In this document: positions 292 to 53,037 of the stretch, piece by piece | Layout: the number at the start of each line of letters is the position of its first letter | Position numbering within the stretch: position 1 is the stretch's first letter | Origin: Natronobacterium haloterrestre | GTDB lineage: Archaea > Halobacteriota > Halobacteria > Halobacteriales > Natrialbaceae | NCBI RefSeq assembly: GCF_900112205.1 | Contig: NZ_FOKW01000001.1 | Location: forward strand, 1 to 64,000 | Reading direction: 5' to 3' | Length of the DNA: 64,000 nucleotides | Program-made: the position numbers and the translations under genes | The notes under the pieces: generated by a model | Database searches by the model: none | Seen by the model: the letters and a program-made list of their open reading frames with translations, nothing else | Told to the model about the DNA's origin: nothing

Positions 292-365
292 GCCGCCTTA
301 GCTCAGACTGGGAGAGCACTCGACTGAAGATCGAGCTGTCCCCGGTTCAAATCCGGGAGGCGGCA
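292..365 (+). tRNA. tRNA-Phe (GAA)
   Basis: The cloverleaf is complete. The acceptor stem pairs GCCGCCT with AGGCGGC and the discriminator is A365. The anticodon stem is CTCGA/TCGAG around the loop CTGAAGA, giving anticodon GAA at 326-328. The T-arm is CCCGG-TTCAAAT-CCGGG. CCA is not encoded. The 3' end of the gene is repeated downstream at 467-490. Confidence 0.97.
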
Positions 366-516
366 CTTCTCTCGCGAACAACTCGTGAGCGACGGAAATG
401 GGATCAGAGCGGATTTGAACTAGACGAGTCGCAGCGCCGAGCGTAGCGAGGCGATCGTCTCGGCGTGGTTCAAATCCGGGAGGCGGCACTTCTCTCGCGA
501 ACAACTCGTGAGCGAC
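344..516 (+). repeat. Duplication of the tRNA-Phe 3' end around a hairpin
   Basis: A 50-base sequence beginning in the T-arm (344-393) occurs again exactly at 467-516. Between the copies lies a hairpin. GGATTTGAAC (411-420), an inverted copy of the tRNA T-arm, pairs with GTTCAAATCC (468-477), which opens the second direct copy. Inside, AGACGA (422-427) pairs with TCGTCT (455-460), and the loop contains CGAGCGTAGCGAG. No gene is seen from 366 to 682. The arrangement resembles an integration scar at a tRNA 3' end or a small inserted element. Confidence 0.85.
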
Positions 517-16272: not shown

Positions 16273-16345
16273 GTCCTGATAGGGTAGTGGACTATCCTCT
16301 TGGCTTGCGGAGCCAGGGACCGGAGTTCAAATCTCCGTCAGGACG
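16273..16345 (+). tRNA. tRNA-Arg (GCG)
   Basis: The acceptor GTCCTGA pairs with TCAGGAC, discriminator G16345. The anticodon stem TTGGC/GCCAG (one T-G pair) encloses TTGCGGA, anticodon GCG at 16307-16309. The T-arm is CGGAG-TTCAAAT-CTCCG. Short copies of its 3' end follow three more times downstream. Confidence 0.95.
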
Positions 16346-16614
16346 CTCACTTCTCGCGAGTGCTTCGCATTGCTCAGCACTCGCTCTCGCGTTCGGTCCT
16401 GACGTGCCCAACGCTCGCTGTCGCTCGCGTTGGACTCCGTCAGGACGTTTCTGCCGACACCAAACTGCGAGCGTAGCGAGCGGCTGGTGTCGGCGAAACT
16501 CTCCGTCAGGACGCTCACTTCTCGCGGGTGCTTCGTATTGCTCAGCACCCGCTCTCGCGTTCGGTCCTGACGTGCCCAACGCTCGCTGTCGCTCGCGTTG
16601 GACTCCGTCAGGAC
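16333..16614 (+). repeat. Hairpin array with repeated tRNA-Arg 3' ends
   Basis: A 114-base unit starting inside the tRNA (16333-16446) recurs at 16501-16614, nearly exactly. The tRNA end CTCCGTCAGGAC appears four times (16333, 16435, 16501, 16603). Each unit contains hairpins: CGAGTGCT/AGCACTCG, and GTCCTGACG paired with CGTCAGGAC, enclosing CCAACGC/GCGTTGG. Between the units lies GCCGACACCA/TGGTGTCGGC with a GCGAGCGTAGCGAGC loop. The inverted GTCCTGACG resembles the tRNA acceptor end. Confidence 0.85.
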
Positions 16615-51705: not shown

Positions 51706-52842
51706 ATGACACAGACGCCAGTCGTCGCGAAGGCGGTTCGAACGCCACAGGGCAAAGAAGACGGCGCGTTCGCGGACCTCCGAAGCGAGGACCTCTCGGT
51801 GCCGCTGATCGACGAAATCCTCGCCGAAACGGGGCTCTCCGGCGAGGAGATCGACGACCTGATGTGGGGCTGTGCCCAGCAGCGCGGCGAGCAGGGCAAC
51901 AACGTGGCGCGGGTCATTTCGCTCCTCTCGGAACTCGGCGAGAGCGTCCCCGCGACGACGATCAACCGCTGGTGTGCCTCGTCGATGCAGGCGGTCATCT
52001 CGGCGGCGGACGCCATCGCGGCCGGCAACCGCGACGCCATCATCGCCGGCGGGGTCGAGAACATGAGCCGCGTCTCGATGGGGGAGAACACCCACAACGT
52101 CCACCCCAAGATGGCCGAACTCTACAACATGGGCGAACTCCAGATGGGGATGACCGCCGAGAACGTCGCCGAGGAGTTCGACATCAGCCGCGAGCAGCAG
52201 GACGAGTACGCGGCCCGGAGCCAGCAGCGCGCCGTCGAGGCGACCGAGGAGGGTCGGTTCGACGACGAAATCGTCCCGATCGAGACCGACGATGGCATCG
52301 TCTCCAAGGACGAGGGCATCCGTCCCGGCACGACCCCCGAGAAACTCGCCGAATTGCCGACCGTCTTCAAGTCCGACGGCACCGTCACGCCCGGCAACGC
52401 CTCCCAGATCTCCGACGGCGCGTCCGCCCTGCTGGTCACCAGCGAGGCCTTCGCCGAGGAGCACGGCCTCGAGATCCTCGCCGAGGTCGGGATGAACAAC
52501 GTCGCCGGCGTCGACCCGACGATCATGGGCATCGGTCCGGTGCCCGCGACGCGGGGCCTGCTCGAGCGCAACGGCCGCGACATCGACGAGTACGACCTCG
52601 TCGAACTGAACGAGGCCTTCGCGAGCCAGTCGATCTACTCCCGTGACGAACTCGGCATCGATCCCGAGATCTTCAACGTCAACGGCGGTGCGATCGCGAT
52701 CGGTCACCCGCTCGGGGCGTCCGGCGCGCGCCTCCCCGTCACGCTGATCCACGAGCTTCAGAAGCGTGGCGGCGGCCTCGGTCTGGCGACGCTGTGTGTC
52801 GGCTTCGGACAGGGTGCGGCGATCGAGTTCGAGGTCAACTGA
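51706..52842 (+). CDS. Acetyl-CoA C-acyltransferase (thiolase)
   Basis: This 378-residue thiolase has all catalytic residues: nucleophile Cys in TTINRWCASSMQAV, NEAFASQ, the His of AIGHPLGASGAR, and the second Cys in TLCVGFGQG. It condenses or cleaves 3-ketoacyl-CoA. GAATTTAAG about 30 bases before the ATG is a likely TATA box with an almost leaderless start. Its 3' end (last 9 codons or so) is duplicated downstream at 52959-52985. Confidence 0.93.
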   Translation: MTQTPVVAKAVRTPQGKEDGAFADLRSEDLSVPLIDEILAETGLSGEEIDDLMWGCAQQRGEQGNNVARVISLLSELGESVPATTINRWCASSMQAVISAADAIAAGNRDAIIAGGVENMSRVSMGENTHNVHPKMAELYNMGELQMGMTAENVAEEFDISREQQDEYAARSQQRAVEATEEGRFDDEIVPIETDDGIVSKDEGIRPGTTPEKLAELPTVFKSDGTVTPGNASQISDGASALLVTSEAFAEEHGLEILAEVGMNNVAGVDPTIMGIGPVPATRGLLERNGRDIDEYDLVELNEAFASQSIYSRDELGIDPEIFNVNGGAIAIGHPLGASGARLPVTLIHELQKRGGGLGLATLCVGFGQGAAIEFEVN

Positions 52843-52985
52843 GGCGGCCGTTCGGGGCCTTTTGGTCCAGGTTTTGCGAGCCCGCTCGGGAGCGAAGTGA
52901 GCGAAGTGAGCGGAGCGAGCAGAGCGAGCAGAGCGGCCGAGACAAAAGGTGATCGCGGCAGGGTGCGGCGATCGAGTTCGAGGTC
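52810..52985 (+). repeat. Duplicated thiolase 3' end around a GAGCG-repeat hairpin
   Basis: The 27 bases at 52810-52836, inside the thiolase gene, recur exactly at 52959-52985. Between them CCTTTTGGTC (52858-52867) and GACAAAAGG (52941-52949) form an imperfect inverted repeat around a simple repeat of GAGCGAAGT/GAGCGAGCA units (about 52890-52935). Confidence 0.85.
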
Positions 52986-53037
52986 CACTACCCCCAGTTT
53001 GGCCGGTCGTTTAGTACCCTCGAGCCGTAGCGGGCGT

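Follow-up and report, generated by a model that had tools for sequence, protein, structure and literature searches.

Hairpin units with copies of the tRNA 3' end behind haloarchaeal tRNA genes, and their likeness in layout to RtT RNA of Escherichia coli

Why is the end of a tRNA gene repeated a short distance downstream, with an inverted piece of the same tRNA lying in between? The question is raised by the tRNA-Phe gene at the start of the DNA studied here, a stretch of 64,000 nt from the draft assembly of Natronobacterium haloterrestre (the window). The features of this locus, and of two further loci in the window that had been likened to it, are as follows.

292..365, + strand: tRNA-Phe(GAA) (end at 365 or 366; nt 53-73 correspond to 345-365)
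344..393, + strand: direct repeat copy 1 (tRNA-Phe nt 52-73 and hairpin 1), from the repeat comparison
368..397, + strand: hairpin 1 (HP1) of the tRNA-Phe unit, with the apical GA/GA motif GCGAACAACTCGTGAGC at 374-390
409..421, + strand: inverted T-arm GCGGATTTGAACT, the 5' arm of hairpin 2 of the tRNA-Phe unit
422..467, + strand: variable core of hairpin 2 of the tRNA-Phe unit, with its tip CGAGCGTAGCGAG at 438-450
467..516, + strand: direct repeat copy 2 (tRNA-Phe end and hairpin 1)
468..488, + strand: copy of tRNA-Phe nt 53-73 (3' arm of hairpin 2 and acceptor strand)
16273..16345 (or 16346), + strand: tRNA-Arg(GCG)
16329..16446, + strand: Arg array repeat 1, period 168 nt, with the inverted acceptor end GGTCCTGACG at 16395-16404 and the end copy CTCCGTCAGGACG at 16435-16447
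16497..16614, + strand: Arg array repeat 2, 97% identical to repeat 1; the same array is present in the sister species
52810..52989, + strand: end of a thiolase-type gene (52810-52840) and its copy (52959-52989) around a hairpin, a looser protein-gene analogue

At tRNA-Phe, the initial annotation had described an exact duplication, 123 bases downstream, of 50 bases starting at the T-arm, and an inverted T-arm pairing with the second direct copy. Both hold: the two repeats (344-393 and 467-516, spacing 123 nt) are identical at 50/50 nt, and the inverted T-arm GCGGATTTGAACT, including GGATTTGAAC at 411-420, forms a 13-bp stem with the second copy of the tRNA end. Behind copy 2 lies an older trailer that also occurs in the sister species, and the tRNA-Phe locus is found in three different states in three sister species. 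The unit seen here runs from the tRNA through the trailer start, hairpin 1, a short linker, the inverted T-arm and the variable hairpin core to the copy of nt 53-73; such units are about 90-125 nt long and often stand in tandem.

The same design had been claimed for tRNA-Arg, and a related one for the protein-coding gene at 52.8 kb; these claims stand in part. At tRNA-Arg, a 118-nt repeat with 97% identity does recur after 168 nt (in tandem), but the end copies are partial (about nt 61-73 only) and the inverted piece at 16395-16404 corresponds to the acceptor end instead of the T-arm. At the thiolase-type gene, the gene-end repeat is present (31 nt, 97% identity, 149 nt apart), but it has no inverted copy; the gene-end copy around a hairpin TTTTGGTCCAGGTTTTGCGAG...GACAAAAGG is also seen in two sister species (L408, L412), with different hairpin interiors. 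Both of these loci represent looser variants of the unit. The GAGCGTAGCGAG core, which had been put forward as the defining feature and as a motif to search for, does not serve as one: exact GAGCGTAGCGAGC matches the genome once, which does not exceed the count for the reversed control, and what stays constant is the copy of nt 53-73, the inverted T-arm and a pair of hairpins that contain tandem G.A mismatches.

The pattern is far more general than first noted. With tRNA positions from whole-genome searches (one genome per species), we analysed the 20-kb stretches around tRNAs and found that many tRNAs are followed, at 70-190 nt, by a copy of their own 3' end, with practically no such copies on the upstream side. 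A downstream copy of the own tRNA end (at least 17/20) is present at 128/268 tRNAs, as compared to 1/268 for another tRNA's end and 4/268 upstream, where 67 of the loci in this test had been picked via the hairpin pattern and not via the copy. The DNA behind tRNAs, 3.7% of the 1.2 Mb covered, contains 41 of the 76 short-spaced direct repeats; together with the counts for own and swapped ends (128 and 1 of 268), this excludes chance. The hairpin-2 pattern occurs 23 times in the zone behind tRNAs and 0 times elsewhere in the 1.2 Mb. Using a stricter definition, units are found behind 15/39 and 18/45 tRNAs in the two closest species (about 40% in the window's species and its nearest relative), and behind 21/30 in a third species. 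When 84,980 species were scanned blindly for HP1 plus inverted arm in their exact pattern, 77 of the 80 loci listed belonged to Halobacteria, in many genera; 67 of the Halobacteria matches sit 6-142 nt behind a tRNA, and nearly all isotypes are present among these. Among 145 genomes of the class, 75 contain the exact pattern and 0 the reversed control; one family is nearly saturated, other families are without the pattern, and more than half of a genome's tRNAs carry no units. Since other, complete genomes show the same units, an assembly artefact is excluded. We found no description of such haloarchaeal units in the open-access literature.

The copied block has sharp edges. When the last copies were aligned with their own tRNAs (n=124), identity rose from 0.29 at nt 51 to 0.98 at nt 53, remained at least 0.96 to nt 71, was 0.85 at nt 73 and then fell towards baseline, so that the block extends from nt 53 to nt 73. 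The inverted arm is likewise tRNA-specific: its fit to the own tRNA as compared to other tRNAs is 0.94 vs 0.56 at nt 57, 0.94 vs 0.72 at nt 60 and 0.57 vs 0.21 at nt 64, and nt 62-65 also fit the own tRNA better (the acceptor signal is weak but significant). In hairpin 2, nt 54-61 of the copy pair fully with the inverted complement, and further nucleotides in part. Cores are common to different tRNAs and genera; the arms remain specific to the tRNA.

The apical motif stem-GA-RC-loop-GY-GA-stem, for which GC/GC and AC/GT are alternatives, is common to both hairpins, and their stems covary around invariant tandem G.A mismatches. In HP1, 10/12 pairs change on both sides (83 cells, as compared to 27 after shuffling and no more than 23 after sliding). 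We rejected a K-turn in HP1, as the flanking pair covaries like a standard pair. The apical GA/GA motif is found 110 + 66 times on the tRNA-sense strand and 1 + 0 times on the other (176 to 1). Palindrome correction in DNA would erase the G.A mismatches, and so the strand-specific fold itself is probably kept.

These observations bear on a passive origin, in which the arrays would be built and reshuffled by slippage during replication, by template switching at quasi-palindromes and by unequal recombination of tRNA ends, and the fold would be a by-product. Several points are in line with it: HP1 is inverted at Arg(tct) between genomes G000 and G001, the tRNA-Phe junction in G000 has short microhomology, the ends of protein genes are also duplicated around hairpins, and the copies drift near-neutrally. 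We nevertheless consider it unlikely, given the identical 53-73 boundaries across many isotypes, the retention of G.A mismatches, which palindrome correction would erase, and the strand bias. Template switching alone, one of the mechanisms first suggested, leaves the sharp tRNA-wide boundaries and this bias unexplained. The HP1 inversion concerns unit 2 of tRNA-Arg-tct in G001 (L042), as judged against the orthologous or usual orientation; another is seen at L277, and both are flips at the DNA level.

Comparison of close relatives indicates how the arrays change. Orthologous units of the closest species are 92.5% identical in the copy, 88% in the hairpins and 85% in the flank, i.e. their divergence is near-neutral. 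It had been suggested that genomes with and without the insert be compared, and the outcome is mixed: in arrays with two units in one species and one in the other, the shared unit is distal in 6/7 clear cases, so that the extra unit is usually the tRNA-proximal one with an older trailer behind, but Gly(tcc) is contrary. The cases with a distal shared unit are Arg(cct), Lys(ctt), Trp and Val(tac) in the window's genus and Arg(cct) and Ser(gga) in a second species pair; Gly(tcc), which runs against proximal gain, and Pro(tgg), which is ambiguous, belong to the second pair. Tail copies nearer to the tRNA are better preserved in 16 cases and worse in 3. T-runs (likely terminators) number 5.3 per kb behind the last copy and 6.9 directly behind tRNAs without units (background 1.0), as expected if the original trailer has been displaced. 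Two ideas were discarded: recent transposition within one genome, for which a same-genome excess of similar cores was sought and none found, and cassettes with a foreign tail, as each foreign tail found is a neighbouring real tRNA gene.

We also observed a second type of module in three tRNA-Phe arrays (L032 in G001, L389 in G003, L009 in G019), which contains a pseudo-tRNA-Phe fragment with two G.A hairpins placed exactly at its nt 52/53, and no tail copy. In another genome, several overlapping or oddly long tRNA-like matches lie within about 700 nt (G173:C1:558171-558886), possibly tRNA pseudogenes in an array.

Growth from the tRNA side could also be the work of a recombinase. A putative recombinase would put small hairpin cassettes into the tRNA T-loop (between nt 52 and 54), as integron cassettes are put into attI; the hairpin would be the recombination site, the tRNA tail would be restored or duplicated, and a role as RNA would not be needed. 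The sharp boundaries at nt 53 and nt 73, the apparent proximal gain in most of the two-versus-one arrays, the old trailers behind the last copy, the imperfect AAC...GTT hairpin with a variable stem, and the pseudo-tRNA-Phe modules, whose hairpins enter at nt 52/53 without tail duplication, would all suit such insertion, and tandem arrangement, an imperfect AAC...GTT hairpin with a variable terminal stem and, it seems, gain on the proximal side are shared with integron cassettes (attC/attI; archaeal cases are outlined in PMC9668308). Unlike those cassettes, however, the haloarchaeal units contain no genes, their site is a tRNA gene, and no integron integrase accompanies them: the TIGR02249 profile exceeded its cut-off in 0/41 genomes, which gave generic tyrosine recombinases only. 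Circles of 100-125 bp would be very small, and copies are never those of another tRNA even though cores are common to several. We hold it possible, but rather unlikely, that haloarchaeal tRNA genes are entry sites of a polarised, site-specific system which inserts small structured cassettes, all of them non-coding, at nt 53 and duplicates nt 53-73, and we judge the recombinase explanation likewise. If it were true, arrays would be built on tRNA tails in the manner of integron or CRISPR arrays, and E. coli RtT would be a bacterial example.

A more familiar source of repeated tRNA ends is the integrase element. Haloarchaeal proviruses use tRNA 3' ends as targets and leave repeats of 22-57 nt (PMC3119063), and the direct repeats could be attL and attR of integrative elements that have lost their interior. 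Elements of this kind do occur at the tRNAs concerned: genome G171 has an 8.8-kb provirus-like integrase element within tRNA-Phe (L347), and a decayed 2.1-kb one lies behind Gly(tcc) in G001. In G171, however, the att block is longer than the direct repeat and starts further upstream (from about nt 41), so the direct repeat is not the att core there. The restored tRNA-Phe at the left end of the element has no unit, and HP1, HP2 and the copy remain with the displaced host end on the right; the units therefore belong to the host side, and, since the provirus-hit tRNA-Phe is without one, they are dispensable. The conserved hairpins and the inverted arm would also go unexplained. The initial annotation was right that a plain att pair leaves the inverted copy unexplained, and G171 speaks against the insert being the end of a larger excised integrase element; we regard the att explanation as very improbable. 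The units share with tRNA-targeted proviruses and integrative plasmids the tRNA 3' end as target and its direct repeat, but those elements span kilobases, encode an integrase, have a longer att block and lack inverted arm and hairpins. Annotation is affected too, as tRNA tail copies are readily mistaken for att sites.

Viral contigs scanned with the hairpin arms contained no haloarchaeal unit by sequence and base composition, the matches being mostly due to chance. In GC-rich viral contigs (L126, L146, L165, L172, L192, L195), the 3' end of a tRNA forms a perfect inverted repeat around a short loop. Dense clusters of about 13 tRNA genes in about 6 kb, virtually without trailer units, were seen at L070 (G000:C17:10000-21999) and L209 (G019); these are probably provirus or plasmid.

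The idea of a short hairpin unit located where a gene ends, together with a copy of that 3' end, is borne out at many tRNAs, and a clean filled/empty pair at a protein gene is in line with it. Behind the latter (G001, L079:4423-4620; presumably an aminopeptidase gene), a 94-nt hairpin element precedes a 51-nt repeat of the gene end that runs to the stop codon, and G000 (L062) has the empty site. A dispersed family of 3'-end hairpins, TTTTTCATCGAAGTTTTTGCGCGAG...GGAAAAAGTTC, is found behind unrelated genes (L079, L085). Overall, the interpretation first given is partly supported.

We put about even weight on the reading that the haloarchaeal units are structured trailer modules of the RtT kind, and that a unit is acquired at the 3' end of its tRNA while nt 53-73 are duplicated. 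Arrays would then grow by gain of units at the tRNA-proximal end, with each new unit displacing the previous tail and trailer, which would drift thereafter. The fold would be required in a single strand, most probably that of the pre-tRNA transcript, by analogy with E. coli rtT RNA, or else in single-stranded DNA in the course of insertion. Points that count against the trailer-module reading are the absence of units from more than half of the tRNAs and from some families, their dispensability at the provirus-hit tRNA-Phe, the failure of the RtT model to score above its cut-off, the near-neutral decay of copies and the Gly(tcc) case; the inverted HP1 in at least one unit is disfavoured under an RNA role.

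Among known systems, REP/BIME and the haloarchaeal PATE/SMR/MITE repeats (PMC3119063) are also short dispersed hairpin elements without genes, but they are not tied to tRNA ends and have no target-specific arms; rtT itself resembles BIME repeats (PMC2965389). The rtT repeats of the E. coli tyrT/tyrV locus go back to Bosl and Kersten (1991), as cited in PMC4986893, and in Pasteurellaceae RNAs of the RtT family adjoin other tRNA genes (PMC4986893). This parallel was missing from the initial annotation. We retrieved E. coli tyrV as a test: it has three exact 19-nt copies of the tRNA end 178 bp apart, and in the Rfam RtT consensus structure over these units the closing stem is formed by the direct copy and an inverted copy of the tRNA end. 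RtT has been a one-locus curiosity of E. coli since 1991. RtT differs from the haloarchaeal units in its block (58-76 in E. coli, nt 53-73 in haloarchaea, where an extra hairpin 1 is present and units are about 90-125 nt) and in its site (the tRNA-Tyr locus in E. coli, many isotypes with tRNA-specific copies in haloarchaea). Rfam cmscan of the haloarchaeal loci returned tRNA only and no RtT, and the RF00391 covariance model reached at best 19.2 bits in four haloarchaeal genomes, below its gathering cut-off of 45 bits; kinship to RtT is therefore by architecture only. That architecture has tandem units behind a tRNA, each with an exact copy of its 3' end, a closing stem made of this copy and its inverted complement, and, in RtT, a core with a GAGC..GCGAG tip like that of the haloarchaeal units, which are the same kind as RtT by layout and not members by sequence. 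A genome-wide, tRNA-specific counterpart of RtT in an archaeal class affects a large share of tRNA genes, and haloarchaea offer dozens of independent arrays, relatives that differ in whether a given unit is present, and hosts amenable to genetics, in which trailers as functional RNAs, tail copying with exact boundaries and the enzyme responsible become testable questions.
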